Positions 2,785 through 22,103 of a stretch of 64,000 nt of DNA are shown here, in pieces (the stretch's first letter is position 1; every line of letters starts with the position of its first letter). The translations under genes were made by a program, and so were the position numbers. A model generated the notes under the pieces. The model did no database searches and was not told the DNA's origin. It saw only the letters and a program-made list of their open reading frames with translations. This stretch comes from Tritonibacter horizontis (GTDB lineage Bacteria > Pseudomonadota > Alphaproteobacteria > Rhodobacterales > Rhodobacteraceae), in NCBI RefSeq assembly GCF_001518015.1, contig NZ_LPUY01000135.1:1-64000 (forward strand), in the 5' to 3' direction.

Positions 2785-2803
2785 TGATGCCTGAAAAGTA
2801 TCA
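2785..2803. promoter_or_regulatory. Putative LysR-type operator (site 1 of 4)
   Basis: The sequence TGATGCCTGAAAAGTATCA has a 7-base left arm identical to the sites at 6916 and 22085, and a right arm matching GGCATCA at 5 of 7 bases. It contains T-N11-A, the LysR core. It lies 92 bases before the start of the 2895 gene. Assignment to the paralogous LysR proteins at 7008 and 17466 is inferred. Confidence 0.5.
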
Positions 2804-2894
2804 TCTGGGCGGATTTGAGGTCGCGTCAAACATCCCCCGTCTTCCTAGGTTTGATGAACTTCGCAACAGGACGCGAGAACAGAGGGAGGTCACG

Positions 2895-3278
2895 ATGACG
2901 GACACAAAGGATTGCGCCGCGCTTCAGGCGCGAGAACATGCGCGGTGTGCGGCGCTGATGGCAGGGGATGCCGAGGCGCTTGATCCGATGTTGGCGGACG
3001 ACCTCGTTCACATTCACCTGAACGGCATGGCGGATGGCAAAGCCAGCTATCTGGCCGGTGTGCGCGATGCCTATCGCTTTCGCGGGCTCAGCCGTGGCGA
3101 CCTGACAATCCGCAGCTATGGGGATTTCGCAGTGATGACGGGTCCCCTGTCGCAACAGCTTGAGGTGCTGTCGACCGGGCAAGTCATGGATGTGCGCGCA
3201 ATGACCACCCAGACGTGGCTCCGGCAGAGCGGTGAGTGGGTCCTCAATACCTGCCACAGCACGCCGCTGCAAAGCTGA
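2895..3278 (+). CDS. SnoaL/NTF2-like protein (DUF4440-type)
   Basis: A 127-residue single-domain alpha+beta barrel protein. Characteristic segments are ALMAGDAEALDPMLADDLVHIH in the N-terminal half, RSYGDFAVMTG in the middle, and a C-terminal strand ending WVLNTCHSTP. NTF2-fold proteins of this kind are small hydrolases, isomerases or ligand-binding proteins, and no activity can be assigned. ATG 2895 behind GGGAGG fits the domain, whereas a longer in-frame extension upstream crosses the putative operator and has no ribosome site. It is the first gene of a four-gene same-strand run (2895-6745), with 25 bases to the FAH gene. Confidence 0.8.
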   Translation: MTDTKDCAALQAREHARCAALMAGDAEALDPMLADDLVHIHLNGMADGKASYLAGVRDAYRFRGLSRGDLTIRSYGDFAVMTGPLSQQLEVLSTGQVMDVRAMTTQTWLRQSGEWVLNTCHSTPLQS

Positions 3279-3303
3279 ACAAAGAATACAAGGACATACC
3301 CGA

Positions 3304-4173
3304 ATGCCTCTGGCCCTCTTCTCTACCGCAACAACATCGCCACGCCTTGGCAAGGTGATTGGTGACCGGATCATCGACCTGGCCGAGGCGGCGCCAGGCT
3401 TGCCCGCAACTGTGATCGAATTCCTTGTCGCCGGAGAGTCTGCCCGTCAGGCTTATGATGCGGTCAACCCGGATAGCCCCGGCGCCCGCCCTCTATCGGA
3501 TGTGCATCTGCACGCACCGGTCCCGGCGCCTGAGAAATATCTTGCGATCGGGATGAACTATTCCGATCACGGCGCGGAGGCTGAAAAGCTCGGTCTGACG
3601 GTGCCGGAATATCAGCTCTGGTTCAACAAGCAGGTCAGCTGCATTACCGGCCCGTTTGATGCGGTGGTGCTGCCGAAGGTCAGCGAGAAGCTGGACTATG
3701 AGGCCGAACTGGCTGTTGTGATTGGCAAGACATGCCGAAATGTACCGCGCGAAAAGGCGCGCGATGTGATCGGTGGCTATATGGTCGCCAATGACGTGTC
3801 TGCGCGGGACTGGCAGCTGCGCACTGGCACGATGACCCTGGGCAAGTCCTTTGATACCCACGGTCCGATCGGCCCCTGGCTGACGCTCGATCATGAGGTG
3901 GTTGACCCGCAGGCGCTGACTGTGCGGATGCTGGTCAATGGTGTTGAAAAGCAAAAGGCGAACACCGCGTCGATGATTTTCGATATCTACGACCAGATCG
4001 CCTATCTGTCGCAAGTCATGACACTGAAACCCGGCGACATTCTGGCCACCGGCACCCCTAGCGGCGTTGGCGTTGCCAAGGATCCGCCCGCGTTCCTGCA
4101 GGTGGGAGACGTGATGCGGACCGAGGTGGAGGGCCTTGGGTATATCGAAAACCGTGTCGTCGCGGACACGTGA
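3304..4173 (+). CDS. Fumarylacetoacetate hydrolase (FAH) family protein
   Basis: A 289-residue FAH-fold enzyme. The active-site segment is AIGMNYSDHGAEAEKLG, the metal-binding E-x-E is in DYEAELAVVIG, the Asp ligand region is ANDVSARDWQ, and the family end motif is GDILATGTPSGVG. FAH enzymes cleave or decarboxylate 2-oxo acids from ring fission (fumarylpyruvate, acylpyruvates, homoprotocatechuate products) using Mg or Mn. The start at 3304 is supported by AAGGAC and by homology beginning at MPLALFSTA. It sits between the SnoaL-like gene and the alpha/beta hydrolase, which suits late steps of an aromatic pathway. A second, only moderately similar FAH protein is encoded at 20182. Confidence 0.9.
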   Translation: MPLALFSTATTSPRLGKVIGDRIIDLAEAAPGLPATVIEFLVAGESARQAYDAVNPDSPGARPLSDVHLHAPVPAPEKYLAIGMNYSDHGAEAEKLGLTVPEYQLWFNKQVSCITGPFDAVVLPKVSEKLDYEAELAVVIGKTCRNVPREKARDVIGGYMVANDVSARDWQLRTGTMTLGKSFDTHGPIGPWLTLDHEVVDPQALTVRMLVNGVEKQKANTASMIFDIYDQIAYLSQVMTLKPGDILATGTPSGVGVAKDPPAFLQVGDVMRTEVEGLGYIENRVVADT

Positions 4174-4240
4174 ACCAAGAGAAAAGATAACCGGCCCGGC
4201 ATCGACCGGGCCAGTTTGCCGACCTGGGAGGATAAGGCAG

Positions 4241-5128
4241 ATGACGACAACAGACATTCAACCCTTCGAGGTTTCCCTCGGTGGTGATCCTCTGACCGGG
4301 CTTTGGGCTCGGGCGGAGCGGGCACCGGAAGACAACAAGCCGGTGATCCTTGCCATTCATGGCGGCACTTACACCGCGCAATATTTTCATGTGCCCGGAT
4401 GTTCGCTGATGGAACGGGCGCTGGCGCAGGGCTTTGATGTGATTGCGATTGACCGGCCCGGCTATGGCGGCAGCAAAGCGCTGCCCGATGCGGCGGATCT
4501 GATCCAGAAAAACGCAGACGCGCTGCTCCCACGAATTCCGGCGTTGCTTGAGGCCTTTGGCCGGGCGGGTGCCCCGGTCTTCATGATCGGGCATTCCATC
4601 GGCGGCGCGATCACCATCTCCATCGCGGCGGCTCAGCCGGATTGGGCGTTGACGGGGATCTCTGTGTCTGGCGTTGGCCTGCAGACCCCGCCCGAAAGCG
4701 CAATGGCATATGCGCAATTTCCCGACACCTACTTTGTCGATTTGCCCACCCCGATGAAGGACCAGCTGATGTTCGGTCCGGCCGAGACCCTTGCCACCGA
4801 CATGCCGGAGGCGAGCCATATGGCCAATACCCATTGCCCGCTGAACGAACTGAAGGATATCACCGGCGGCTGGCAAGACCGGCTGCGCGGCCTCTGCGCG
4901 ACTGTCACGGTTCCGGTCCAGACAAAACAGGGTGCCCATGAGGCGCTGTGGCTGATGGATGGAACGCTGGTCGAGGACTTTGGCGCCTGTTTCACCGCAG
5001 CGCCGCGTGTTGACGTGGGGGTGGTGGCCGATGCCGGCCATTGCATCGACTTTCACAAGGCGGGGGCCGCCTTTCAGGACGCGCAACTTGCATTTGCCCT
5101 GAGCACGCTGCCGGCAGCAGCTGACTGA
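4241..5128 (+). CDS. Alpha/beta hydrolase
   Basis: A 295-residue alpha/beta-hydrolase fold. The oxyanion segment is AIHGGTYTAQYF, the nucleophile elbow is GHSIGG, and the likely catalytic His is in DAGHCIDFH near the C-terminus. Such enzymes hydrolyse esters or meta-cleavage C-C bonds; the neighbouring FAH and extradiol genes make either plausible. ATG 4241 follows GGGAGGATAAGG at close spacing. There is no signal peptide, so it should act in the cytoplasm. A 67-base gap from the FAH gene suggests co-transcription. Confidence 0.85.
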   Translation: MTTTDIQPFEVSLGGDPLTGLWARAERAPEDNKPVILAIHGGTYTAQYFHVPGCSLMERALAQGFDVIAIDRPGYGGSKALPDAADLIQKNADALLPRIPALLEAFGRAGAPVFMIGHSIGGAITISIAAAQPDWALTGISVSGVGLQTPPESAMAYAQFPDTYFVDLPTPMKDQLMFGPAETLATDMPEASHMANTHCPLNELKDITGGWQDRLRGLCATVTVPVQTKQGAHEALWLMDGTLVEDFGACFTAAPRVDVGVVADAGHCIDFHKAGAAFQDAQLAFALSTLPAAAD

Positions 5129-5242
5129 GACCAACGAAATTGAACTCGGGCCTCCGCGACAGGCCTGAACCTCTGCCGATGTGTCGGGGGGGGCAGGCCT
5201 GTTGTGGATCGAAACAGACAGGACAGTTGAATGGAGGATCGC

Positions 5243-6745
5243 ATGGCTGGCATTCAGTCCCTTACAAAAATCGGCTCCCTCGCCGCCGTGGTGGCGCTAA
5301 GCACAACAACGGGCCTCTGCGCTGCAGAGCTTCTGGCGCTGCGGGATGTGGCGGTGGTCGATACGCGCAGTGGTGAAATCACCACCGGGCAGACCGTGAT
5401 GATCCGGGGTGACCGGATCGAGGACATTGTCGCCCTGGGGGCGGAGCCTGCCGAAAGCCATACGGTCATTGAAGGGGCCGGCCGTTATGTCGTGCCGGGC
5501 TACATGGACATGCATGCCCATGTGCTTGATGAGGCCGCGCATGGTGACCACGACCACTCCGCCGGCAACCATACGACCCAGGCGACCAAGCTGGAGCTGT
5601 TGCTGGTGAATGGCGTCACCGGGTTTCGGCAAATGTCGGGTTCAGCGGACATGATCGCAGCCGCCCGCGCATTGAATGCCGCCACTGCTGCGGGCGAGGT
5701 GGTCGCGCCGGAGGTGCTGCAGGTTCCGGGGGATATCTATCTTGGCCAGGCCCCGGCGCCGGACGCGGCGCGTGCCTTTGTCCGCGCGCAGCAGGCTGCA
5801 GGGGCGGATTTCGTAAAGATCGTGGCCGGTCCGCGTGAGGGCGCGTTGGCAGTCATGGACGAGGCCCGCAAGCTTGGGTTTGGTGTCGCGGGCCATCTGC
5901 CGGTGCCGGTCTCCACCGCCGAGGCCGTGGCGGCGGGATTTACCTCGTTCGAACATCTCGGTGCGACCCCTGGCAACATGTTGGACTGCGCCAAGGCAGG
6001 TGCAATGATCCGTACCAAGATGGTCGAGAACATGCCCAAGGGCCCGATGGAGCTGCCGCCGACGTTTTTGCTCAATCCGATGCTCTATACGGCAGAGAAG
6101 ATGGCACCGGCGCTCAAGGGTGTGCTGGGGACGTTTGACCCGGAAATGTGCGATACGCTGGCGGAATTGTTCATTGAAAAAGATGTCTGGCAGGTGCCCA
6201 CCCTGATCCGCATTCGCGGAATGAACTTTGGCGGGGCTGAGGCGTTTCGACAAGATCCAAACCTGAAGTATCTGCCAGCCGAGACGCGTGCGGTCTGGGA
6301 AGAACTGGGGATGCAATTCGACACAGGCCTCCCGGCAGAGACCAAATCCGTGGTGGAGGCGATCTATGGGCTGACCCAAAGGATCACCGGCCAATGGCAC
6401 GCATCTGGTGTGAAGATGCTGGCAGGGTCTGACCTTGGCGGGATCTGGGTCTTGCCCGGCTTTGGGCTCCACCGCGAATTTATTGAATTGGAGCAGGCGG
6501 GGCTTTCGCCGCTATCGGTCCTGCAAGCCACAACCCTGAACGCCGGCGAATTTCTGGGGCGCGCCGATGAGCTGGGCGTTGTTGCACCCGGTTTTCGGGC
6601 CGATCTGGTTCTGCTCGATGCCAATCCGATGGAAGCCGCCGGAAATCTTGCGGCGATCTCAGGCGTGATGACACGGGGCAGTTTCATTGACGCGGATGGC
6701 ATTACAGAAATCAAGCGGCGCATCGCGGAGAACGCGGCAGACTAG
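5243..6745 (+). CDS. Exported amidohydrolase, imidazolonepropionase-like
   Basis: A 500-residue amidohydrolase-superfamily enzyme with an N-terminal signal sequence (hydrophobic core about residues 10-27, likely cleavage after GLCAA). The metal site begins with DMHAHV (H91, H93). A Lys region FVKIVAG, His-containing GHLPVP and FEHLG, and Asp in AGSDLGG follow in order, as expected for a binuclear site. The family includes prolidase-like and organophosphate or ochratoxin-hydrolysing members; the substrate is unknown. ATG 5243 is chosen over ATG 5231 because GGAGG (5234-5238) lies inside the longer version at correct spacing. It ends a four-gene run and is probably periplasmic, upstream of transport. 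Confidence 0.85.
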   Translation: MAGIQSLTKIGSLAAVVALSTTTGLCAAELLALRDVAVVDTRSGEITTGQTVMIRGDRIEDIVALGAEPAESHTVIEGAGRYVVPGYMDMHAHVLDEAAHGDHDHSAGNHTTQATKLELLLVNGVTGFRQMSGSADMIAAARALNAATAAGEVVAPEVLQVPGDIYLGQAPAPDAARAFVRAQQAAGADFVKIVAGPREGALAVMDEARKLGFGVAGHLPVPVSTAEAVAAGFTSFEHLGATPGNMLDCAKAGAMIRTKMVENMPKGPMELPPTFLLNPMLYTAEKMAPALKGVLGTFDPEMCDTLAELFIEKDVWQVPTLIRIRGMNFGGAEAFRQDPNLKYLPAETRAVWEELGMQFDTGLPAETKSVVEAIYGLTQRITGQWHASGVKMLAGSDLGGIWVLPGFGLHREFIELEQAGLSPLSVLQATTLNAGEFLGRADELGVVAPGFRADLVLLDANPMEAAGNLAAISGVMTRGSFIDADGITEIKRRIAENAAD

Positions 6746-6915
6746 TTTCAGATGTGGTCCCAACACAGGCGGTCGCTCTTTCGGGGCGGCCGCTGACCGT
6801 TTTGTTCGGCAGGGAAGCCCGGAGGCTGGCGCGAACGCCGGAAAGGCCCGACCGCGGGCCTGGTATTGGCCCGCCGTGCGCAAGGCCGAGTCCCACTGAT
6901 CTGGTCGTGCAGGCA

Positions 6916-6934
6916 TGATGCCGAACAGGCATCA
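6916..6934. promoter_or_regulatory. Putative LysR-type operator (site 2 of 4)
   Basis: TGATGCCGAACAGGCATCA is a perfect 7-base inverted repeat with a 5-base spacer, containing the LysR core T-N11-A (6919-6931). It is 74 bases before the lysR start at 7008, where autoregulation is typical. The same arms recur exactly at 22085. The rest of the 6746-7007 spacer holds a G+C hairpin at 6844-6861 without a T-run. Confidence 0.65.
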
Positions 6935-7007
6935 ATTTTGCGAAACATGAACCCTGTTGCAATAGCCCACCGCCTCGCGGATCATACACTGCAAAGGGAA
7001 GGACAAC

Positions 7008-7943
7008 ATGCCGATCAAACTCACACATTTGCGCGATGTGGTGGCAGCGGCAGAGCTCGGTAGTCTGCGAGCCGCCTCACGTCACCTTGGTATCGCGCAA
7101 CCGGCTATCAGCCGCAGCATCCGCGAAATCGAAAACGAACTGGGCGCGACGCTGTTCCAGCGCCACCAGCAGGGTATTCGGCTTACAGCCGTTGGCGAGG
7201 CGTTCTTGCGGCGTGCGCTGATGGTACAATCCGAATTGCGCCGCGCCCGCGAGGAAGTGGAGCAGATGAAAGGGGAACTCGGCGGCCATGTCACTGTCGG
7301 GATGTCTACGGTTTCCACCTTTACCATGATGCCCTCCGCGATCCGGGCCTTCCGGCAAAAATATCCGCGCGCCATCGTCAAGGTGACCGAAGGCTTTTTT
7401 CAGGACATTGAAAGCGCAATGATGAGCGGCCAGGTGGATTTCTACGTGGGACCGTTCAATCCGACCCGGCGCAACACTGGCCTGATCACCGAAGGGTTGT
7501 TTGAGCATAATCGGGCGGTGATCGGACGTCGGGGTCATCCCCTGTCCGGGGCAGAGAGGCTGGAAGACCTGTTTGAGGCGGAATGGGTGAAACAGACCAT
7601 GTCAGAACGCGAGACGGAGGCGGATTTTGAGCTGCCCTTTACCCGTCGTGGCCTGCCGGAACCGCGTATCGTCATGTACACGACCTCTGCCACCGCGACG
7701 CTCCTGGCGGTGGCAAACAGCGATCTTCTGACCATTGTTCCCGCCAGCATGCTGGGCCGCCCAATTGCCGCCGAAGACTACGAGGTTTTCCATATGGAAG
7801 ACAGTTTGAACGCGCCTCCGATCAGCCTGGTCCGGCGGGCGGATCTCCCGTTGACCCCACTTGCGGAATATCTCTCCGACATGGTGCGCCGTGTCGGTCT
7901 TCAAGTGGCCAATGCAGGTAAAGCGACCACAGTCAGGAGATAA
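7008..7943 (+). CDS. LysR family transcriptional regulator (paralogue 1)
   Basis: A 311-residue LysR protein. The N-terminal winged HTH (LRAASRHLGIAQPAISRSI about residues 20-38) is followed by a periplasmic-binding-type effector domain. The effector domain shares runs such as RAREE, FRQKYPR, EGFFQDIE, DFYVGP and VIGRRGHPLSGAERL with the regulator at 17466, so the two are clear paralogues. The start at 7008 has GGGAAGGACAAC. It stands between the exported-amidohydrolase operon and the SDR/TAXI operon on the same strand, and probably controls one or both. The palindrome at 6916 is its likely own operator. Confidence 0.93.
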   Translation: MPIKLTHLRDVVAAAELGSLRAASRHLGIAQPAISRSIREIENELGATLFQRHQQGIRLTAVGEAFLRRALMVQSELRRAREEVEQMKGELGGHVTVGMSTVSTFTMMPSAIRAFRQKYPRAIVKVTEGFFQDIESAMMSGQVDFYVGPFNPTRRNTGLITEGLFEHNRAVIGRRGHPLSGAERLEDLFEAEWVKQTMSERETEADFELPFTRRGLPEPRIVMYTTSATATLLAVANSDLLTIVPASMLGRPIAAEDYEVFHMEDSLNAPPISLVRRADLPLTPLAEYLSDMVRRVGLQVANAGKATTVRR

Positions 7944-8044
7944 CAATCAGGTATCGTTTCCGTCAAAAAGGCATCTTATTTGCATGCTCCTGATATCGTG
8001 GAGTGACCTCGACGGGGGCGACCCCGAAACAGTCGGGGAAGCGC

Positions 8045-8839
8045 ATGCAGGATCAGGCTAAAGCTCATCGGACCGGGGCCGCTGGAACGAGGTTACGGGG
8101 GCGGGTGATCCTGCTAACGGGTGCGGCGCAGGGGATCGGAGCCCAGTATGCCCGGGCTCTTGCCGCTGAAGGCGCCCATCTGGCGCTCTGCGATATTGAG
8201 GCACCGACCGCAATTTTGGCAGAGCTTCACGCGGCGGGATATCCGGCGATGGGTGGACCGTGTGATGTGACGGACCGGCAGGCAGTGACCCGGTTTGTCG
8301 CCGAGGCGACCGAGACGCTTGGCCCTTGCACCGGTTTGGTGAACAACGCTGCGATTTTCGCGGCCCTCACGCCGGGTCGGTTCGAAGACATCCCCTCTGA
8401 CCAGTTCGATCGCGTATTGCAGGTCAATGTGCGGGGCACGTTTGAATGTATCCGCGCAGTGTTGCCGGGGATGCGGGCGGCGGGATACGGCAAGATCGTC
8501 AACATCGCCTCCGGCACTGCCTTCAAGGGCACGCCGGGGCTATTGCACTATACGGCGTCCAAGGGGGCCGTCATCGCGCTGACCCGTGTTGCGGCGCGCG
8601 AGGCCGGACCGCTGGGGGTACGCATCAATTGTCTGACGCCAGGTTTCACCCTGAGCGAAGGGCTGATCGGCGCCGAAAGCACCGAGGAAATCAACCGCAT
8701 GACTGTCGCTTCGCGCTGCCTGCAGCGCGACATGCTGCCAGAGGATCTCTCCGGCACGCTTGCGTATCTGTTGTCTGCCGACAGCGATTTCATGACCGGA
8801 CAAAACATCGTCATCGACGGAGGTTCGGTGATGCATTGA
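8045..8839 (+). CDS. SDR family oxidoreductase
   Basis: A 264-residue classical short-chain dehydrogenase. The NAD(P) motif TGAAQGIG lies at residues 25-32, NNAAIF is present, the active site is YTASKG with an upstream Ser, and the C-terminal segment FMTGQNIVIDGG closes the fold. An acidic residue after the second strand (LALCDIE) suggests NAD preference. ATG 8045 follows GGGGAAGC; an in-frame GTG 42 bases upstream lacks a better site. It begins a six-gene run to 15354. It would oxidise an alcohol on the imported substrate or an intermediate, but the exact substrate is unknown. Confidence 0.88.
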   Translation: MQDQAKAHRTGAAGTRLRGRVILLTGAAQGIGAQYARALAAEGAHLALCDIEAPTAILAELHAAGYPAMGGPCDVTDRQAVTRFVAEATETLGPCTGLVNNAAIFAALTPGRFEDIPSDQFDRVLQVNVRGTFECIRAVLPGMRAAGYGKIVNIASGTAFKGTPGLLHYTASKGAVIALTRVAAREAGPLGVRINCLTPGFTLSEGLIGAESTEEINRMTVASRCLQRDMLPEDLSGTLAYLLSADSDFMTGQNIVIDGGSVMH

Positions 8840-8909
8840 CGCAGACCGCGCCGGGGAGGGCGCGGTGAGAGAGACCCCTGCAAAACGGGGGAACATGGGA
8901 GGAAAAAAC

Positions 8910-9881
8910 ATGACACATTCGACATTCGCTGCTGGTTTGGCGGCGCTGACCTGCATGGGGTCCGCAATGGGTTCGGCGGCATCGGCGCAGGTTCTGACGC
9001 TTTCGACAACCAATCCTGGCGGCCTGACCCATTCTATCGGCACAGCCATCGCCCGCACGGTGACAGAGCAGAGCGATGTGCGCTTGGTGGTGGTTCCAGC
9101 AGGCGGGTCCCCGATGCCCGCCGTCGCCGGAGGCGAGGCCGATTGCGGGGTCAACGTGGCATTTGACCTTGCCTATTATGTCACCGGTACCGGGTTCTAT
9201 GCGGAACAGGGTGCCCATCCGTCGTTGCGGATGACGGCAGCCGTTCTGGATTCTCAGGTCGCGCTTTATGTGAAAACCGACGCCGCCGAGACGTCTGTAT
9301 CGGATCTCAAAGGGCTGCGGGTTCCCGGCGGGCTCAATGCGCAGGCGGCCATCGGGCAGGTCTACGACACGTATCTGGCGCTTGGCGGTCTTGACCGGGC
9401 CGATGTCGACAGCATCCCGACCCAAAGCATCGTCCAGGCGGCGGATGACTTCAGCGCGGGGCGCAACGATACCTTTCTGTTCTCGGTTGGTGCAGCCAAA
9501 GTGCTGGAGGTCGACAGTTCCGTCGGGGGGCTACGTGCGCTGACGGTGGCAAATACCGACGAAACCCGTGCCATCCTGAACGATGGGCTGCCGGGCGCAA
9601 AGTTTCTGGAGTTGGACCCCGGCGTAAGCAGCCAGATCGCGGCGCCGACCAACGTCATTGCTTATGACATGGTTCTGCTTTGCGCCGAAAGCGTACCGGA
9701 TGACGCCGTGGCGGCGATGACCCGTGTCATCCATGACCACAAGGCAGATCTGGCCGCGGCCTTTGCACCAATGGCACGTTTTGACCCCGCTGCGATGGCA
9801 CCGGAGGTGCCGGGTGTCACCTACCATCCGGGCGCGATTGCGGCGCTGGGGGCGGTCGGGCTCTGGCCTCAAACGAACTAA
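8910..9881 (+). CDS. TAXI family TRAP transporter solute-binding protein
   Basis: A 323-residue periplasmic receptor with a signal peptide (cleavage likely ASA-QV near residue 26). The mature start VLTLSTTNPGGLTHSIGTAI and the segment VVVPAGGSPMPAVAGGEADCG match TAXI (TRAP-associated extracytoplasmic immunogenic) receptors. These bind small organic acids and deliver them to a fused 4TM-12TM permease, encoded next at 9974. ATG 8910 follows GGGAGGAAAAAAC. The location between an SDR and catabolic enzymes suggests it imports the compound degraded here. Confidence 0.9.
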   Translation: MTHSTFAAGLAALTCMGSAMGSAASAQVLTLSTTNPGGLTHSIGTAIARTVTEQSDVRLVVVPAGGSPMPAVAGGEADCGVNVAFDLAYYVTGTGFYAEQGAHPSLRMTAAVLDSQVALYVKTDAAETSVSDLKGLRVPGGLNAQAAIGQVYDTYLALGGLDRADVDSIPTQSIVQAADDFSAGRNDTFLFSVGAAKVLEVDSSVGGLRALTVANTDETRAILNDGLPGAKFLELDPGVSSQIAAPTNVIAYDMVLLCAESVPDDAVAAMTRVIHDHKADLAAAFAPMARFDPAAMAPEVPGVTYHPGAIAALGAVGLWPQTN

Positions 9882-9973
9882 GGCCGAACGGACCCGGCCC
9901 GTTCTGTCGGGCGGGCACTCTGTAGCGATGGCCTCTTGTCGGGCCTCAGAACAACACGAAAGACCATTTGAAC

Positions 9974-12909: not shown

Positions 12910-12921
12910 GGAGCGACACAG

Positions 12922-13854: not shown

Positions 13855-13887
13855 GGCTCGTCTCTTTCTCACCAAAAAGGGTATCTG

Positions 13888-15354
13888 ATGACCAACCAAA
13901 CCGTGACCGAACGGTCCCACTACATCAATGGCACCTGGGCACCGTCTGCGCGCCATTTCGACGTGTCCAACCCGCTGGACGACAGCCTGGTTGCCCGCGC
14001 TGCTGCCGGGACACGGGCCGAAGCGGATGCCGCTGTTGCCGCAGCGGATCAGGCTTTTCCGGGCTGGGCATCTCTGACCCCTGGCGCGCGTCAGGCTCTG
14101 TTTCTCAGGGCTGCGGACATCACCGAACGGCGCCATGATGACATCGTTCATTTGCTGGCAGTCGAAACGGGCACCGGCCGGGCCTTTGCTTCTTATCAGG
14201 TTCGTTTGTCGGCGAATTTGATGCGGCAGGCGGCCTCCTGGGGGTATCTGCCCTGCGGCGATATTTTGCGCAGCGACACGCCCGGACGGACGGCGATGGT
14301 GCAACGCAAACCGCTTGGTGTCGTTGCAGGTTTTACGCCGTGGAACGGGGCATTTTTCCTCGCTTGGCGCACAATCGTGCTGCCGATGGCCTTTGGCAAC
14401 ACCGTGGTCATCAAGCCGTCAGAACTTGCACCTGTGTCAGCGGGTCTCATCCAGGCGGAAATCCTGCATGAGGCCGGTTTTCCGGCCGGCAGTCTCAATG
14501 TGGTGACCCATGCTCCGGGAGAAGCCGCAGCTCTTTCGGATGCCTTTTTTGAAAGTCCCGCTGTGCGCAGTATCAATTTCACCGGGTCGGATCGCACCGC
14601 GCGCATTCTTGCGGCCCGTGCCGGTCAGGCGCTCAAGCGGATGGTGCTGGAACTCGGCGGGTACAACCCGATGCTGGTGCTTGACGACGCCGATGTTGAT
14701 CATGCCGTGCGGGCGGTGAATTTCGGTGCCTTCTTCCACCAGGGACAGATTTGCATGAACACCCGCAAGGTCTATGTGGCGCAGTCTATTCACGACGACT
14801 TTGTCGCGAGACTGGCAGAACGCACAGGTGGCCTTCTGGCAGGGGATCCCCTGGCCGAAGGCGTTGTGGTCGGGCCGCTTATCAATGATGCCGCCGTTGC
14901 TCTGACCAAATCGCGTATCCGCGACGCGGTGGACCAGGGGGCGACCCTTGTGACCGGCGGCACCTGCGAGGGGCGCGTCCATGCGCCGACAATCCTGACC
15001 CATGTACCCGATACGGTGCGTGCGACGCAGGGCTGTGAAGAGACCTTTGGACCGCTGCTGATTGTCGAGGCCTTTGATGATGCCGAAGCCGCATTCCAGA
15101 AGGCGCAGGACACGCCCTATGGGCTGAGTGCAGCAATCATGACGGGAGATGCGGCCAAAGGGCTGGAGATGGCCAGCCGTATGGACACCGGAATGGTACA
15201 TGTGAACGGAGCCACGATGGCCGGCGAGGCATCCTTGCCCAACGGCGGCGTCAAAGATTCCGGCTGGGGTCGGTCGGGCCACTATGCCGTTGAGGATTTT
15301 ACCGAACTCCGCCTTGCCACGCTGACTCATGGCGCGGGCACTTTCCCGTTCTGA
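13888..15354 (+). CDS. NAD(P)-dependent aldehyde dehydrogenase (benzaldehyde/vanillin-type)
   Basis: A 488-residue ALDH-superfamily enzyme with all key residues: Asn153 in TPWNG, Lys176 in VIKPSE, Glu255 in LELGGYNP and catalytic Cys289 in GQICMN. The overall pattern is that of salicylaldehyde, benzaldehyde and vanillin dehydrogenases, which convert aromatic aldehydes to acids. The start is at ATG 13888 behind AAAAAGGG. It ends the 8045-15354 run and is followed by a strong terminator. The aromatic-aldehyde assignment fits the nearby hydroxylase and extradiol dioxygenase, but the aldehyde may also be aliphatic. Confidence 0.92.
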   Translation: MTNQTVTERSHYINGTWAPSARHFDVSNPLDDSLVARAAAGTRAEADAAVAAADQAFPGWASLTPGARQALFLRAADITERRHDDIVHLLAVETGTGRAFASYQVRLSANLMRQAASWGYLPCGDILRSDTPGRTAMVQRKPLGVVAGFTPWNGAFFLAWRTIVLPMAFGNTVVIKPSELAPVSAGLIQAEILHEAGFPAGSLNVVTHAPGEAAALSDAFFESPAVRSINFTGSDRTARILAARAGQALKRMVLELGGYNPMLVLDDADVDHAVRAVNFGAFFHQGQICMNTRKVYVAQSIHDDFVARLAERTGGLLAGDPLAEGVVVGPLINDAAVALTKSRIRDAVDQGATLVTGGTCEGRVHAPTILTHVPDTVRATQGCEETFGPLLIVEAFDDAEAAFQKAQDTPYGLSAAIMTGDAAKGLEMASRMDTGMVHVNGATMAGEASLPNGGVKDSGWGRSGHYAVEDFTELRLATLTHGAGTFPF

Positions 15355-15396
15355 CCGGTTCCGGCCACACCCTGGGATCGGGGTGCGCCACACAAT

Positions 15397-15430
15397 AAAA
15401 AGAGGGGCTGATTTCTCGGCCCCTCTTTTT
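15397..15430. terminator. Bidirectional rho-independent terminator
   Basis: A perfect 12-base stem, AAAAAGAGGGGC at 15397-15408 pairing with GCCCCTCTTTTT at 15419-15430, has a 10-base loop, with a T-run on one side and an A-run on the other. It lies between the convergent ALDH gene and dctM and can terminate both. Confidence 0.92.
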
Positions 15431-15450
15431 GTTTGTCTCTGGTGGCGCGG

Positions 15451-16734
15451 TCAGCTGTCGAACATCATCAGGTTCATGCTGAAGAGCGAGATTTCGGGCA
15501 CAAAGGTGATCAACGCCAGCAGGGCAAGGAACACCGCAAAGAAGGGCAGCGTCCCACGGTAAATATCTGCGGCCCGCATTCCCAATGCCGATTGCGCCAC
15601 AAAGATGTTGATCCCAAAAGGCGGCGTAAAAAGGCCCACTGCAAGGTTCAACGTCATCACGATCCCGAAATGCACCTTGTCGATACCGAGTGTATCAACA
15701 ATTGGGATCAGAACCGGCGTCAGCAACAGGATCGCCGCAAGGGGATCCATGAAGCAGCCCCAGATCAAGAGCATGATGTTCACGGCGAGGAGGAACTGCC
15801 AGACGGACACATCAAGCGAGACAACCCAGGCCACCATGCTCTGTGGGATTTGGTTTACGGTCAGTACCCAGGAGAACAGACCTGCCGCAGCCACGATGAC
15901 GAGGATCTGTGCCGAAAACAGTACAGTTGTCGTGGCGCAGTTCAGGATGTCGGCCCAGCTGAGTTCGCGGAACACATAGCGGGTGACAATAATGGCGTAA
16001 AAACAGGCCACCGCAGCGGCTTCGGTCGGGGAAAATACGCCACCGTAGATGCCGCCGAGCACGATCACAGGGGCACCCAGCGCCCAGATTGCCCGCCCGG
16101 CGGCCCGCAGTATGCCACCGAGTGAGGCCCGGTTGCTGCTGCCAAACCCACCCAGGCGCGCGCGGATCATGATATAAAGCGCCAATACGCCCGCAAGCAG
16201 GAGGCCCGGAAGCACGCCCGCCGCATAGAGCCGCGGAATGGATGTCTCGGAGCTGGCACCATAGACAATCATCGGGATCGAGGGTGGAATAATGATGCCG
16301 ATGGCGCTGACGGATGTGATCATCCCGGCCGAAAAACTCTTGGGATAACCATCTTCCTGCATTGCCGGGTGCATCACCTTGCCGACAGAGGCGACCGCTG
16401 CCGCGCTTGACCCGGAGATCGCACCAAAGACGGTCGCGGTGCCGACGGTTGTCACGCCCAAGGCACCGGGCATTCGCCCGACGATGCTGCGGATGAAGTC
16501 CACCAACCTGAGCGATACGGTTCCGCGCGACATCAGTTCACCGGCAAAGATGAAATAGGGCACGGCCAGAAGGCCGTTCTGGCTGATGGCGCCAAACAGG
16601 TTCTGGTGCACCGCGTTCATCGGAATGTTCATGAAAAACGCCAGCGCAATCACCGAAGCCGCAAGCAGCACGACAAAGATTGGCAGGCCGAAGATCAGCA
16701 GCCCGGCAGGCAGCAATCCTAGTGCGAAAGTCAT
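15451..16734 (-). CDS. dctM: TRAP transporter large permease subunit (DctM)
   Basis: A 427-residue protein with about 12 hydrophobic segments and TRAP large-subunit motifs: YFIFAGELMSRGTVSLRLV, ATVFGAISGSSAAAVASVG and GLFTPPFGINIFVAQS. It forms the ion-coupled channel with DctQ (16731-17237). The start ATG 16734 overlaps the dctQ stop (ATGA), showing translational coupling. No receptor gene follows in this operon; the nearest unpaired DctP is at 22230 on the other strand. It faces the ALDH gene across a shared terminator. Confidence 0.93.
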   Translation of the reverse strand: MTFALGLLPAGLLIFGLPIFVVLLAASVIALAFFMNIPMNAVHQNLFGAISQNGLLAVPYFIFAGELMSRGTVSLRLVDFIRSIVGRMPGALGVTTVGTATVFGAISGSSAAAVASVGKVMHPAMQEDGYPKSFSAGMITSVSAIGIIIPPSIPMIVYGASSETSIPRLYAAGVLPGLLLAGVLALYIMIRARLGGFGSSNRASLGGILRAAGRAIWALGAPVIVLGGIYGGVFSPTEAAAVACFYAIIVTRYVFRELSWADILNCATTTVLFSAQILVIVAAAGLFSWVLTVNQIPQSMVAWVVSLDVSVWQFLLAVNIMLLIWGCFMDPLAAILLLTPVLIPIVDTLGIDKVHFGIVMTLNLAVGLFTPPFGINIFVAQSALGMRAADIYRGTLPFFAVFLALLALITFVPEISLFSMNLMMFDS

Positions 16735-17237
16735 ATCGGATGCTCCTCTGCGGTGATGTCGGAAACGGGCGCGTTCACCAGCACGGCACAAAGTCGCCAG
16801 AGCGCGATCAGCGCCATGCAAATCAGGCTCAGTGTGATTGTGCTGTGAAAAATCCAGAGTGGAAGCCGCGCGGCATCGCTGGTCATACCAAAGCGGAAAA
16901 CCCGCGCGACATAGGCCCAGGACAGCCAGGCCACCCATCCGCAGATGGCCGCAGTTATCGCTTGTTGCAACGCGCCTATGGGGCGTTGCCAGCCTGTCGG
17001 GAGCATCGCAACGATCATGTTCATCGAAATTTCTGTCCGTCGCCAGCTGACCACAATGGCCCCGATCCAGGTCACGACGATCATCGCAAAGATCGCGACC
17101 TCGTCAGCCCAGAGCAATGCTGCGTTGAAGATATAGCGCGCGACGACGTTCCAGACCGATAGGGCCACCATCGCCAGCAGTGCCAGCCCCAGAAGCGTCG
17201 CAAGGGCAGTCATGCCCCGGCCAATGATGCGCTCCAT
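16731..17237 (-). CDS. dctQ: TRAP transporter small permease subunit (DctQ)
   Basis: A 168-residue protein with four hydrophobic segments, containing VWNVVARYIFNAALLWADEVAIF, the DctQ signature in which an aromatic/Arg/Tyr segment precedes W-x-D/E-E. It pairs with DctM (overlap ATGA). ATG 17237 is behind GGAGGAGGAAC; upstream sequence in frame does not resemble the family. It is divergent from lysR at 17466, with the 228-base spacer carrying a putative LysR operator at 17356. Confidence 0.92.
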   Translation of the reverse strand: MERIIGRGMTALATLLGLALLAMVALSVWNVVARYIFNAALLWADEVAIFAMIVVTWIGAIVVSWRRTEISMNMIVAMLPTGWQRPIGALQQAITAAICGWVAWLSWAYVARVFRFGMTSDAARLPLWIFHSTITLSLICMALIALWRLCAVLVNAPVSDITAEEHPI

Positions 17238-17355
17238 CTGTTGTTCCTCCTCCTTGTTGGAGGTCTCCCGCCTCCGGCCCGCACAAAACCTGTGGCGGGC
17301 ATCTATCTTTCTACAGGGCGAAGTCACAGCGGTTAGATGCCTCATTTGTCCCGGT

Positions 17356-17374
17356 GATGCTGATTTTGCATCGC
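17356..17374. promoter_or_regulatory. Putative LysR-type operator (site 3 of 4)
   Basis: TGATGCTGATTTTGCATCG keeps TGATGC on the left and GCATC on the right, with core T-N11-A at 17359-17371. It is less symmetric than sites 2 and 4. It lies between divergent dctQ and lysR, 119 bases before dctQ and 92 before lysR. Single half-sites GATGCC (17338) and GCATCG (17444) flank it. Confidence 0.5.
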
Positions 17375-17465
17375 CTATAGGTGAAAGCTGCGGTTTTGGT
17401 GCCATGGCTGATACCTGAATTGCATAGATTGCCCACTGCGATTGCATCGTGCTATCGGGGAGCCC

Positions 17466-18371
17466 ATGAAATTCAACCAGCTCAGAGATTTTGTTGCCGT
17501 AGCCGAAAACGGTAGCCTGCGCGGGGCCGCGCGGGCGCTTGGATTGGCACAGCCGGCGATTACCCGATCCATTCAGGAACTGGAGCATTCGCTTGGCACA
17601 CAGCTTTTTATCCGCGAGGCCCGCGGCGTCCGGATGACGCCCATCGGCGAAGAATTCCTTGTGCGCGCCATGACCATTCTCGGCGAGGTACGTCGGGCGC
17701 GCGAGGCGGTGCATCAACAACAGGATGGCGTGGAGGGAGAGCTGGTCGTTGGCCTGTCCATTGCCGGGCATCTGGGGCTGTTTTCCGAGGCGCTGCGCCC
17801 GTTTCGCCGTCGTTATCCAAAGGTCCGGCTGCGACTGATCGAGGGATTCCTACCGACGCTTGAAGGGGATCTGCGCAATGGGCTGGTCGATATCTATGTC
17901 GGCCCGGTGCCCGAAGGGCTGCATCCGCCTGATCTGCATGTCACCAAGCTTTTTGACAATCAGCGGGTCGTGATTGGGCGCAAGGGGCATCCGTTGTCCG
18001 GGGTGCGCCGCCTGCAGGATCTGGAGGGGGCGGAATGGCTGACCACCTCGATCACGCACGAGGCGGTGGATGAGCTGGCACAGGTCTTTGCAGAAGAGGG
18101 CCTGCCGCCGCCGCAAATGGCAGCGCAATGCCAGTCGGCGCTGTCGATCCTGACGGTGCTGATGAATTCTGACATTCTGGCGATGGTGCCGGTGGAATGG
18201 GTGCAGACGCCGATGTTGAGCGGGTTGCTGGAGGCCTTCCAGCTGGAACACCCGTTTGCCGCACCGCCGCTGGTGATGGTGCACCGCACCGGCATTGGCC
18301 TGACGCCGGCAGGCGAGCATTTTTCCCACCTGATCCAGCGTGCCGCGCAGAAAGTAGATAGGCACGCCTGA
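17466..18371 (+). CDS. LysR family transcriptional regulator (paralogue 2)
   Basis: A 301-residue LysR protein, MKFNQLRDFVAVAENGSLRG followed by the HTH AARALGLAQPAITRSIQELE. The effector domain resembles that of the regulator at 7008 along its length (EGFLPTLEGDLRNG, DIYVGP, VIGRKGHPLSGVRRL). It is divergent from dctQM and immediately before the FAD hydroxylase/FAH/extradiol genes on the same strand. A role as activator of ring cleavage and TRAP uptake is the natural inference. The start at 17466 fits the LysR N-terminus; an in-frame upstream start adds only eight residues. Confidence 0.93.
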   Translation: MKFNQLRDFVAVAENGSLRGAARALGLAQPAITRSIQELEHSLGTQLFIREARGVRMTPIGEEFLVRAMTILGEVRRAREAVHQQQDGVEGELVVGLSIAGHLGLFSEALRPFRRRYPKVRLRLIEGFLPTLEGDLRNGLVDIYVGPVPEGLHPPDLHVTKLFDNQRVVIGRKGHPLSGVRRLQDLEGAEWLTTSITHEAVDELAQVFAEEGLPPPQMAAQCQSALSILTVLMNSDILAMVPVEWVQTPMLSGLLEAFQLEHPFAAPPLVMVHRTGIGLTPAGEHFSHLIQRAAQKVDRHA

Positions 18372-18467
18372 TACTAAAATCGTATCGCGCCGACATTTTT
18401 GAATTCTCTTTCAATCGCTCTGTTGGCGTCACCCTGTCCTGACACGACTGTGGAAGGAAGGAAAACC

Positions 18468-20153
18468 ATGACGCGGGTGACGACCGATGTGCTGATTGTT
18501 GGCGCAGGGCCTTGCGGGCTGATGTTGGCAAACGAACTGGGCCGCCGTGGCATTGCAGCCATGGTGGTGGATCGCGAGCCAACGGTCGCCACGGCCCCAC
18601 AGGCGAATGCGACCCAGGCCCGCACGATGGAGCATTACCGGCGCCTTGGCTTCGCCGCGGAGATCCGCGCGCTTGGTCTGCCGGCTCACCACGCCACCGA
18701 TGTAGCCTATTATACGACCTTTGCGGGCCATGAGCTTGCCCGGCACCAGATGCCTGCCTCGGGCGAGGCAGACCGGGTTGTCCGCGAGCAGGCACATCTT
18801 TGGAACGGGGCGGAACTGCCTCATCGCATTCCGCAAAGCCTGGTCGAGCAGACCCTCTGCCAACAGGCGCAGGCGCTGCCCGATATCGAGATTGCGTTCA
18901 ACACGGAACTTACCGGGTTTGTCGAGGACGACGCCGGGGTTCTGGCCGAGGTGCGAACGGCGGCGGGGCAGAGCTATCGCATCCGCGCGCGCTACCTTTT
19001 TGCGGCGGATGGCGGCAGCAGCATGGTGCGCAAACAGCTCGGCATTCGCTACGCGGGTGGGGATGCAAAAGCGCGCGATTTCATGGGCGGGCAAATGCTG
19101 TCGATCTACCTCGACGCGCCGGCCTTTTACGAGCTGAACCTGCCAAGGGCCTGGATGTACTGGACCTTCAACCGCCGTCGTCGCGCCCTGTTGGCGACAG
19201 TGGATGGGACTGGCGGCTTTGTGCTGCAAACCCAGCTGCGTGAGGGCGAGGACGCCGCGACGATGACGCAGGCAGAGGCGGGCGAGTTGTTCTTGCAAGC
19301 CGTCGGCAAAGAGATCCCCTATCGCCTTACCGGCATTGCCACCTGGCTGGCTGGCCGGGCGTTGGTGGCAGAGCGGTTCTGTCACGGGCGTGTCTTCCTG
19401 GGCGGCGATGCGGTGCATTTGTTCACCCCGACCGGTGGCATGGGTTACAACACCGCGATTGAAGATGCGGTCAATATCGGCTGGAAGCTTGCAGCGGTGC
19501 TCAAGGGGCAGGCAGGGGAGGGGCTTTTGGCCTCTTACGAAGCCGAGCGCAGGCCGGTCGCACTGCGCAATACCCGGTTCGCGATAGAGTTTGCCGATTC
19601 CGTGGGCCTTTATGTGCCGTCTCCCGCAATCGAGGACAGCGGCGCCGTGGGCGAGGCCGCGCGGGCGCGGGCGGGCGCCTATCTGCAGCAACATGCCGCT
19701 CGTGAATTCACGATCCCGGGTTTTACGTTTGGGGCCCGCTATGATGCTTCGCCGGTCATTTCCGCGGAACGTAGCCCAGCCCCACCAGATGCGGCTTCGG
19801 TCTATGTTCCCAGCGCCAAGCCGGGCGGGCGCGCGCCGCATGCCTGGTTGAGCGACGGGCGATCCTTGTTTGATGCCTTTGGTTTTGAATGGACCCTGTT
19901 GTGCCTTGGTGAAGATAGTGATGCGGCGGGCGACTTCCTGGTCGCGGCAGAGGCGCGGGGGATGACGCTCAAGATCCTCTATCTGCCACAGGAAGTACTG
20001 CTGCCGGATCTGTATGAGGCACCCTATGCGCTCATCCGTCCGGATCAGATTGTCGCCTGGCGCGGTGCCGCACCGGGGACGCGCGCGATTTCCACACTGT
20101 TTGACAAGCTCACCGCCCGCGCTGCTGTGCGCGCTGTGGCGGATGTGGCTTGA
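18468..20153 (+). CDS. FAD-dependent aromatic monooxygenase (PHBH/MhpA family)
   Basis: A 561-residue class A flavoprotein hydroxylase. The Rossmann motif GAGPCGLMLANELGRRG starts at residue 12, the DG motif is FAADGGSS (about 178-185), and the second FAD motif is GGDAVHLFTPTGGMGYN (about 312-328). A thioredoxin-like C-terminal domain follows, as in MhpA and phenol hydroxylases. It inserts one oxygen next to a ring hydroxyl using NAD(P)H and O2, giving a catechol for the dioxygenase at 21082. ATG 18468 follows GGAAGGAAGG. It is followed after 28 bases by the FAH gene, so these are likely one operon. Confidence 0.9.
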   Translation: MTRVTTDVLIVGAGPCGLMLANELGRRGIAAMVVDREPTVATAPQANATQARTMEHYRRLGFAAEIRALGLPAHHATDVAYYTTFAGHELARHQMPASGEADRVVREQAHLWNGAELPHRIPQSLVEQTLCQQAQALPDIEIAFNTELTGFVEDDAGVLAEVRTAAGQSYRIRARYLFAADGGSSMVRKQLGIRYAGGDAKARDFMGGQMLSIYLDAPAFYELNLPRAWMYWTFNRRRRALLATVDGTGGFVLQTQLREGEDAATMTQAEAGELFLQAVGKEIPYRLTGIATWLAGRALVAERFCHGRVFLGGDAVHLFTPTGGMGYNTAIEDAVNIGWKLAAVLKGQAGEGLLASYEAERRPVALRNTRFAIEFADSVGLYVPSPAIEDSGAVGEAARARAGAYLQQHAAREFTIPGFTFGARYDASPVISAERSPAPPDAASVYVPSAKPGGRAPHAWLSDGRSLFDAFGFEWTLLCLGEDSDAAGDFLVAAEARGMTLKILYLPQEVLLPDLYEAPYALIRPDQIVAWRGAAPGTRAISTLFDKLTARAAVRAVADVA

Positions 20154-20181
20154 AGCTGATCCATACACAAGGGAGACACAC

Positions 20182-21057
20182 ATGAAATTCGCGAGCTTTG
20201 CCAAAGATGGCCAGAGCGGCCTGGCTATCGAAACTGCAGATGGCTTTCGGGGCTTACTGGCGGATGCCCCCGGCTTTCCCGGCGATCTGCTGTCGCTGAT
20301 CCGCGCGGGGGGCGCGGCCTTGACGGACGCGGGCGAGTGCCTCGCCAAGGGGGAGGTCGTGGATGTCGACGCCGTCACCCTGCTTCCACCCGTAAGCGCA
20401 CCGGAAAAAATCGTCTGCGTCGGCTTGAACTACCGCGATCATTCTGCCGAGAGCGGGTTTGCCCAGCCGGAATTTCCCACCTTGTTTGGCCGGTTCAATT
20501 CGTCGTTGATCGGCCACGGCGCGCCGATCTTGCGGCCTGAAGTTTCTGAACAGCTCGACTATGAAGGTGAGCTGGCTGTGGTGATCGGTCGCGTGGCGCG
20601 CAATGTCAGCGCGGCGGAGGCGCTCGACTATGTAAGTGGCTATTCGATCTTCAACGATGCGTCTGTCCGGGACTATCAAACCAAAGCCCCGCAATGGACC
20701 GCTGGAAAGAACTTTGACGATACCGGTGCCTTCGGGCCGTGGTTCGTGACGGCCGATGCGCTGCCCCGGGGCTGCCTTGGTCTCTCCCTCATCACCCGGC
20801 TGAATGGGCAAGTGGTGCAGGAAGCGCAAATCGATCAGATGGTGTTTTCCGTTGCCCAGATCATATCCATTTGCTCCAGTTTTATGACGCTGAAGCCGGG
20901 CGATGTGATCGTGACAGGCACCCCGTCCGGCGTCGGGCTGGCGCGAGAGCCACAGCTCTGGATGAAAGAAGGCGATGTCTGCGAGGTCGAAATCACCGGC
21001 CTTGGCACGCTTTCGAACCCAATTCGAAACGCAGCCCCACTGGCGAAATCCGCCTGA
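20182..21057 (+). CDS. Fumarylacetoacetate hydrolase (FAH) family protein
   Basis: A 291-residue FAH-fold protein with an N-terminal cap of about 70 residues and a catalytic domain carrying CVGLNYRDHSAESGF, metal site DYEGELAVVIG, FNDASVRDYQ and GDVIVTGTPSGVG. It probably hydrolyses or tautomerises the 2-oxo acid made by extradiol cleavage. It lies between the hydroxylase and the dioxygenase with 24-28 base gaps and GGGAGAC before the start. It differs from the FAH protein at 3304 in length and cap region, so the two probably act at different steps rather than being duplicates. Confidence 0.9.
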   Translation: MKFASFAKDGQSGLAIETADGFRGLLADAPGFPGDLLSLIRAGGAALTDAGECLAKGEVVDVDAVTLLPPVSAPEKIVCVGLNYRDHSAESGFAQPEFPTLFGRFNSSLIGHGAPILRPEVSEQLDYEGELAVVIGRVARNVSAAEALDYVSGYSIFNDASVRDYQTKAPQWTAGKNFDDTGAFGPWFVTADALPRGCLGLSLITRLNGQVVQEAQIDQMVFSVAQIISICSSFMTLKPGDVIVTGTPSGVGLAREPQLWMKEGDVCEVEITGLGTLSNPIRNAAPLAKSA

Positions 21058-21081
21058 TACCACGGCACGAAGGGAGCAGAC

Positions 21082-22050
21082 ATGACCGCAATTACTGGCA
21101 AGGTGCAAATCACCAAACGCCCTGGCGAGCTGGGCATCCATTCGATGGACAGTTTCAACCTGATTGTGCCGGACCTGGGGCAAGCCCAGTCCTTTTACCA
21201 GAGTTTTGGCCTTGATGTCCGCGAGGAGGGGCAGGGGCTGGGGCTCTATACCGTGGGGTCCGATCATCGCTGGGCAAGCCTGACAGAAGGGGGGCGCAAG
21301 AAGCTCAACCACCTCAGCTTTGCCGTCTTCGAAGAGGATTTCGCCCCCATGCGCCGCCGGATCGAGGCTGCCGGCACGCGGATCATGGATGTGCCTTCCT
21401 ATCACGAGCAGACGACCGAGGGCTTCTGGATCAGCGATCCTTTCGGGATGATGATCGAAATCAAGGTGGCGCCCAAAAGCTCCCCTTGCGAAAAGGCACC
21501 CTTTTTGACGCGATCGGTGCCCGCCGGCCAGATGGGCGCCGTGCAGCGATCCCAGGCGCCGAAGGTGGAGCCGACCCGCCTTGCGCATTTGTTGGTCTTT
21601 ACCCCCTCGGTGCCGGACTCGCTGGCTTTTTACGCGCGCACGTTGGGGCTGCGATTGTCAGACCGGTCTGGCGACGGGATCTGCTTCATGCATGGGATCC
21701 ACGGCTCAGATCACCATCTGATCGCCTTTGCCAAGTCAGACGCCCCCGGTTTGCATCATTGTTCCTGGGACGTAAGCGATATCAACCAGATAGGCACCGG
21801 CGCCATGCAGATGGCCGACAAGGGCTATTCCGAAGGCTGGGGGCTGGGGCGGCACGTTCTCGGTTCCAATTACTTTCACTACGTAAAGGACCCATGGGGG
21901 AGCTATTCGGAATATTCCGCCGATATCGACTATATCCCGGTCGACCACGATTGGGACGCGGGCGACTACCCGGCAGAAGACAGTATCTATCTTTGGGGGC
22001 CGGATATTCCGGCGGATTTTGTTCACAACTACGAAAGCGACCCGGCCTGA
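21082..22050 (+). CDS. Two-domain vicinal oxygen chelate protein, type I extradiol ring-cleavage dioxygenase
   Basis: A 322-residue protein with two VOC domains, residues about 18-130 and 165-290. The C-terminal domain keeps the Fe(II) pattern His169 (LAHLLVF), His225/226 (LHHCSWD) and Glu277 (YSEYSAD). It also has the catalytic-His segment SDHHLIAFA seen in BphC/HpaD enzymes, and GRHVLGSNYFHYVKDPWG near the end. It should cleave a catechol next to a hydroxyl with O2. ATG 21082 follows GGGAGC. It forms one unit with the hydroxylase and FAH genes. The preferred catechol is unknown. Confidence 0.85.
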   Translation: MTAITGKVQITKRPGELGIHSMDSFNLIVPDLGQAQSFYQSFGLDVREEGQGLGLYTVGSDHRWASLTEGGRKKLNHLSFAVFEEDFAPMRRRIEAAGTRIMDVPSYHEQTTEGFWISDPFGMMIEIKVAPKSSPCEKAPFLTRSVPAGQMGAVQRSQAPKVEPTRLAHLLVFTPSVPDSLAFYARTLGLRLSDRSGDGICFMHGIHGSDHHLIAFAKSDAPGLHHCSWDVSDINQIGTGAMQMADKGYSEGWGLGRHVLGSNYFHYVKDPWGSYSEYSADIDYIPVDHDWDAGDYPAEDSIYLWGPDIPADFVHNYESDPA

Positions 22051-22084
22051 CTGGGCCAGGTTCGGTCGACCGGAGCGCGTGCCG

Positions 22085-22103
22085 TGATGCCTGGCAGGCA
22101 TCA
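22085..22103. promoter_or_regulatory. Putative LysR-type operator (site 4 of 4)
   Basis: TGATGCCTGGCAGGCATCA is a perfect 7-base inverted repeat with a 5-base spacer and the same arms as the site at 6916; T-N11-A spans 22088-22100. It lies 127 bases before dctP (22230), so dctP probably has its own regulated promoter after the dioxygenase gene. Confidence 0.65.

Follow-up and report, generated by a model that had tools for sequence, protein, structure and literature searches.

What do the palindromes scattered between the genes at the left end of contig NZ_LPUY01000135.1 of Tritonibacter horizontis do, and which protein might read them? We analyzed positions 1 to 64,000 of this contig (the window, 64,000 nucleotides in full), in which a sequence-only reading had noticed four copies of a TGATGCC-N5-GGCATCA palindrome and two paralogous LysR proteins, and had proposed a candidate LysR regulon. 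The palindromes, referred to here as boxes, lie in a gene island of ~31 kb that comprises window positions 1-23300 and part of a second contig, C82 (L006:6401-14241), which from gene order very probably adjoins the left end of the window. Our analysis favors, with a probability of roughly 0.87, that the boxes are operators of the island's LysR regulators, however they are shared out between the two proteins, LysR-1 and LysR-2. A LysR regulon is the best reading because the box accompanies one LysR subfamily, sits in matching spacers of the syntenic relative G153 and resembles published LysR sites.

The island was found to hold eight boxes in seven spacers, six in the window and two on C82; the four copies first noticed were all real, but an undercount. 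The two perfect copies of TGATGCC-N5-GGCATCA lie where they had been placed, at 6916..6934 (centre 83 base pairs (bp) before lysR-1) and 22085..22103 (centre 136 bp before dctP). Of the two related sites described, that at 2785..2803 (TGATGCC-TGAAA-AGTATCA; 2 mismatches) was correctly positioned, its centre 101 bp before a SnoaL-type gene, whereas the one reported at 17356-17374 in fact occupies 17355..17373. This last box (TGATGCTGATTTTGCATCG; 3 mismatches) lies between the divergent dctQM and lysR-2, with its centre 102 bp before lysR-2. A weaker second box (TGATACCTGAATTGCATAG; 17409..17427) follows 54 bp from it, centred 48 bp before lysR-2, and another (TGATACTAAAATCGTATCG; 18369..18387) begins on the lysR-2 stop codon, centred 90 bp before FMO1, a flavin adenine dinucleotide (FAD) monooxygenase gene. 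Both C82 boxes (65731 and 68242) are exact TGATRC-N7-GYATCA; one is centred 149 bp before a porin-like gene and the other 113 bp before the VOC-FMO2 unit. T-N11-A, pointed out earlier for four sites, is present within the inverted repeat of all eight boxes, and all eight stand upstream of putative target genes. The earlier placement of every site in a non-coding spacer turns on the SnoaL start: an ATG at 2781 opens a frame running through the 2785 box, but the alternative start at 2895, behind AGGGAGG, leaves that box non-coding. The 2895 start appears likelier because G153 has a stop codon between box and SnoaL gene.

At up to three mismatches the window contained 7 matches to TGATGCC-N5-GGCATCA against 6.21 expected, which is the level of chance; significance therefore rests on close matches only. 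Across the organism's own genome (4.86 Mb searched), all three matches with 0-1 mismatch fell inside the island. With up to two mismatches there were 29 (5 in the island, 24 elsewhere), compared with 9 for a backwards control. The exact form TGATRC-N7-GYATCA occurred five times genome-wide, each time in the island (backwards control, 1), and 37 times with one mismatch, 7 of these in the island (control, 10). Summed over 60 other genomes it gave 51 exact matches, at most 4 per genome, and the 17 other genomes of the genus had 0-2 each. Exact YGATRC-N7-GYATCR was found 7 times within the 31 kb island, whereas 200 dinucleotide shuffles averaged 0.05 matches and never yielded more than 1, and window positions 23301-64000 (40.7 kb) contained none; these wider R/Y patterns were drawn after the sites at 2785 and on C82 had been seen, so the genome-wide count is no blind test. 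One match with an end base changed (C74:198305) precedes an open reading frame that we do not link to the island and looks like chance. Loose matches were also present on contigs C79 and C48.

LysR-1 (7008..7943, + strand) and LysR-2 (17466..18371, + strand) are paralogues, as the sequence-only reading had it. Both score above the Pfam cut-offs for an N-terminal HTH_1 and a C-terminal LysR_substrate domain, and they are 41% identical; other LysR matches of the genome covering at least 200 residues reach at most 27%. NCBIfam scores stayed well below the curated cut-offs: 140 and 125 bits for PcaQ (cut-off 303.8), 58.4 and 60.2 bits for CatM (580) and, for LysR-2, 64.8 bits for BenM (600), which was not among the matches listed for LysR-1.

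Relatives of the two proteins were then collected. At E 1e-50, LysR-1 was found in 4 of 295 genomes of the family, its own included, and among 18 genomes of the genus in its own alone; the LysR pair was absent at this cut from the 17 others, one of which is 67% complete. Stricter cuts gave 3 of 385 genomes of the class (1e-60), 2 of 298 of a second family, f70 (1e-75), and 2 of 398 of the phylum (1e-65), and among named genomes the scan picked out Sphingomonas sp. Y57 alone, where the search for a second LysR gene covered a 20.9 kb stretch. LysR-2 was detected at 1e-65 in 12 of 298 f70 genomes. Once repeats were removed, 21 LysR loci in other genomes remained, each of which was examined for boxes from 300 bp upstream to 100 bp downstream of the LysR gene. 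The relaxed form YGATRY-N7-RYATCR, with at most one mismatch, was present at 21 of 21 loci (shuffle mean 0.89, maximum 3), and the strict form of the own cluster, with two mismatches allowed, at 16 (shuffle mean 1.02, maximum 5). With lysR-1 and lysR-2 themselves the box thus accompanies 23 of 23 loci, compared with one of 13 control LysR genes of the own genome in either form, these 13 having been fetched out of 35 other LysR-type matches.

This box-linked subfamily spans several genera of two families. Its LysR-1-type and LysR-2-type genes fall on separate sides of the tree (98/99 support), with a single gene, L054, in neither group. The LysR-1 type alone was found in G215 and G768 and the LysR-2 type alone in most f70 genomes, with the box in both cases; G841, a genome with the LysR-2 type, also carries the intermediate L054 gene. 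One of the two exact matches among those listed for G215 stands before its LysR-1 gene. The recognition helix reads QPx[ILV][ST]RS in all 23 subfamily proteins and in none of 6 control LysR proteins (6 of the 13 fetched), and it is nearly identical in the LysR-1 and LysR-2 types. This shared signature suggests that both proteins may read the same box.

In G153, five spacers hold a box that aligns column by column to boxes of the island, those at 2785, 17355, 18369 and 22085 among them, within spacers that are otherwise 47-56% identical. Mismatches to the strict form number 1 in the LysR-2/DctQ spacer, 2 in LysR-2/FMO1, 2 in DIOX1/DctP, 0 at VOC2 and 3 in SnoaL/Lrp. A sixth box precedes the lysR-1 copy at 214322, a non-syntenic place (3 strict and 0 relaxed mismatches), and further boxes are at 221338 and 233569. 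Two exact TGATRC-type matches were among those listed for G153, both in the cluster. No good box was seen in this genome in the spacer that follows FMO2, and a counterpart of the porin-like gene was likewise not found in the G153 stretches. In G092, boxes with two mismatches were seen in the LysR-2/FMO1 and LysR-1/next-gene spacers. The G153 cluster itself has two LysR-1-type genes (C22:221394-222287 and 214322-215242) and one LysR-2-type gene.

Published operators offer a further comparison. The BenM/CatM site is ATAC-N7-GTAT (PMC6628147), that of CatR/CatM, ClcR and TfdR is AkACC-N5-GGTAT, and BenM and CatM are paralogues with similar boxes (PMC6449761). The consensus of the relatives' boxes, GATACC-N5-GGTATC, contains ATACC-N5-GGTAT, and the degenerate ATRC-N7-GYAT matches all eight boxes of the island. 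Like the sites of CatR, CatM, BenM, ClcR and TfdR, the boxes form an odd palindrome with T-N11-A and stand before the regulator's own gene as well as before putative operons for aromatic catabolism; they differ in an extra outer G..C pair and in having G mostly in place of A. The island also departs from these systems in its seven boxed spacers spread over 31 kb and in regulators that score far below the NCBIfam cut-offs for CatM and BenM. According to PMC5603801, PnpR and PnpM of Pseudomonas sp. WBC-3 are paralogous LysR proteins (44% homology) serving one aromatic pathway; their box is GTT-N11-AAC, with binding established by footprinting, and the pnpC region protected by PnpM or PnpR contains a T-N11-A site. 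The likeness lies in two paralogous LysR proteins for one aromatic pathway, and the difference in the box and in its footprinted binding. By sequence, the solved structure closest to LysR-1 is TsaR of Comamonas testosteroni (PDB 3fxq; E 7e-50). Its recognition helix, QPALSAA, is unlike the QPAISRS of LysR-1, which suggests that the DNA site of TsaR is probably different. No published cluster or box matching the island's as a whole was found in our searches of open-access papers. Box linkage to the subfamily, the G153 spacers and the likeness to published sites together argue for the candidate LysR regulon first proposed.

Several observations weigh against this reading. The strict form misses five loci (L025, L055, L045, L046 and L053), and when upstream boxes alone are counted, the relaxed form is present at 15 of the 21 loci and the strict form at 10. 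Some of the relatives' sites were already in view when the relaxed form was drawn, the controls cover part of the available LysR genes, and the 21 loci are not fully independent because several are near-copies (L042/L043, L045/L046 and L048/L050 in the tree). With G mostly in place of A, the exact published core ATAC-N7-GTAT is present in one of the eight boxes. The shared helix signature may stem from common descent alone. Within the island, no box at three mismatches was seen at the start of the pyruvate dehydrogenase (PDH) operon or at the flavin mononucleotide reductase gene. None was seen at this cut in the spacers lysR-1/SDR (short-chain dehydrogenase/reductase), SDR/TAXI (our own label for an NMT1_3 binding protein), TAXI/TRAP permease or ALDH (aldehyde dehydrogenase)/dctM. 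Promoter-like matches near the window boxes were in no clear excess over shuffles. Among the relatives, the second G153 lysR-1 copy has a close box downstream only, with none upstream at one mismatch or fewer. In the G092 spacers FAH2, FMO1-DIOX1, LysR-2/DctP, TAXI and LysR-1 upstream, no box was seen at three mismatches, and no exact TGATRC-type match was among those listed for G092. The other exact match of G215 lies inside a called gene elsewhere.

The alternative that survives best is a variant of the operator reading, in which each box serves one LysR protein only and its centre sorts the sites into two interleaved regulons; we consider it possible, though the less probable arrangement. 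The A+T content of the central five bases is 0.40 in the 5 boxes beside LysR-1-type genes and 0.79 in the 14 beside LysR-2-type genes (permutation p ~0.003), in a comparison from which the second G728 box, three Y57 boxes lying farther from the Y57 LysR gene and the box of L054, the gene in neither group, were omitted; with the three Y57 boxes added back, the LysR-1-type value is still 0.40. These differing centres also count against the main operator reading, and the separate, supported tree sides of the two LysR types favor a division. The boxes compared are, however, few, chosen post hoc and partly from related strains. Boxes of the window do not follow the regulator next to them, since the dctP box is of the G+C-rich type although it lies beside the LysR-2 module, and the near identity of the two recognition helices also speaks against a strict division. 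We favor shared recognition by the two LysR proteins, possibly with unequal affinity; BenM/CatM and PnpR/PnpM are earlier examples of paralogues using a common site. Tentatively, two LysR proteins from separate sides of the subfamily might read one box and so provide two sensors for one promoter set and two catabolic modules. It is a speculative extension of this idea that each would answer its own intermediate and that the A+T content at the box centre would set which of them dominates at a given promoter.

Binding of the boxes by another regulator, such as the Lrp/AsnC-type protein whose gene lies at 2234-2704, is improbable. The 2785 box does lie between lrp and the SnoaL-type gene, and G153 has an Lrp counterpart that is 84% identical; yet no Lrp match was found in those stretches from other relatives that were searched for it (whole genomes were outside this search), where box and LysR gene are both kept, and the box accompanies the LysR gene at 23 of 23 loci. 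Slightly less credible still is that the palindromes act as RNA hairpins, either terminators or processing sites. The perfect copies could fold into a 7-bp stem with a 5-base loop, and the 22085 box lies 35 bases past the dioxygenase stop codon. Against this, boxes occur between divergent genes, at 17355 and in the five stretches L059, L061, L062, L063 and L064. A scan for terminator-like sequences that covered the six window boxes listed none of them, and the terminator hairpin reading was rejected for these six. Chance matches or a general genome repeat, as the three-mismatch window count and the 24 of 29 two-mismatch genome matches lying elsewhere might suggest, have almost nothing left to recommend them beside exact R/Y-form matches confined to the island and above all 200 shuffles and five boxes conserved in place. 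For the seven close boxes, taken together, chance is excluded; the 17409 box is less sure.

Under the operator reading, LysR-1, LysR-2 or both would contact the YGATRCC-N5-GGYATCR-type box as tetramers, both ahead of their own genes and ahead of the units for uptake, hydroxylation, ring cleavage and hydrolysis. On binding an aromatic substrate or an intermediate of ring cleavage, the regulator would change its grip on the DNA and so help RNA polymerase start. The single effector first suggested for all units would be one possible form of this scheme. The computation shows the boxes themselves, their clustering in the island, their conservation and their association with the LysR subfamily; binding by LysR-1 and LysR-2, the allocation of boxes, inducible activation and an aromatic inducer are inferences. 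PMC5603801 describes a LysR rule by which one box lies around -65 and another site around -35 relative to the transcription start. A search around 27 primary boxes for another box at constant spacing found no distance that stood out, distances 31, 47 and 58 having 4 cases each against a mean of 0.91 per distance. The proposed operator set is an ordinary kind of gene control and leaves the understanding of how LysR regulons work unchanged. What it adds is a candidate regulon in which two regulators would serve eight boxes and about twenty genes, the latter belonging to an uncharacterised pathway of aromatic type. Some natural relatives carry only one of the two regulators and can serve for comparison, and the system is a clean case for asking in what way paralogous LysR proteins use an operator in common or split it between them.

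The putative target genes form several units. The first (2895..6745, + strand) encodes a SnoaL-like (DUF4440) protein, an FAA hydrolase, an alpha/beta hydrolase and an amidohydrolase. Downstream of lysR-1, and perhaps transcribed on from it, are genes for an SDR, the NMT1_3 binding protein, a fused TRAP permease, a decarboxylase-like amidohydrolase-2, a glutathione S-transferase (GST) and an ALDH (8045..15354, + strand). dctM and dctQ follow at 15451..17237 (- strand), a FAD monooxygenase, an FAA hydrolase and an extradiol-type dioxygenase at 18468..22050 (+ strand), and the dctP binding protein at 22230..23255 (+ strand). The porin-like gene on the C82 side is so labelled by us from a Pfam match below the cut-off. 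Over its full length the island encodes two FAD monooxygenases of aromatic-hydroxylase type, an extradiol-type dioxygenase, a VOC protein, two FAA hydrolases, an ALDH nearest HpaE, a decarboxylase-like amidohydrolase, a GST, an SDR, two TRAP-type uptake systems and a pyruvate-dehydrogenase-type complex, a set that would fit an aromatic acid degraded through meta-cleavage. Closest to the dioxygenase are HpaD-type enzymes and an uncharacterised PDB protein, and closest to the FAD monooxygenase are RebC and 2-hydroxybiphenyl monooxygenase. The amidohydrolase-2 (11917-12909) most resembles an uncharacterised hydrolase, followed by 5-carboxyvanillate and gamma-resorcylate decarboxylases, and this likeness hints at a carboxylated phenol as substrate.

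The join to C82 is proposed because a gene is split there that is whole in G153. The N-terminal part of a pyruvate-dehydrogenase-type (AceE-type) E1, with a Transketolase_N domain, is broken by the contig end at 1..1438 (- strand), and the remaining part, with PDH_E1_M and Transketolase_C_1, lies at C82:71027-72240 (L006:13025-14241). A search with the C82 part gave a single match place in the own genome. Both parts form one open frame of 893 codons in G153, followed as in the island by E2, E3, a VOC enzyme and the second FAD monooxygenase. The contig ends were found to have no exact overlap of 15-499 bases in common, so the proposed join depends on gene continuity and synteny. E1 is also present in the G153 and G768 clusters, and the own E2 and E3 genes sit inside the catabolic island. 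The island was probably acquired by the species T. horizontis, because the LysR pair, the part searched for there, is absent from the 17 other genomes of the genus.

The cluster combines two different TRAP-type uptake systems, one at 8910-11914 and one at 15451-17237 with 22230-23255. The own dctP lies 5 kb from dctQM on the opposite strand, and in G092 all three genes are together. In the lysR-2/FMO1 spacer, a second stretch right after the box (18388-18425) is conserved relative to G153 and is possibly a promoter or activation site. Box pairs 54-58 bp apart are present in three promoters, at window 17355-17427, L031:17028-17104 and L064:9709-9785.

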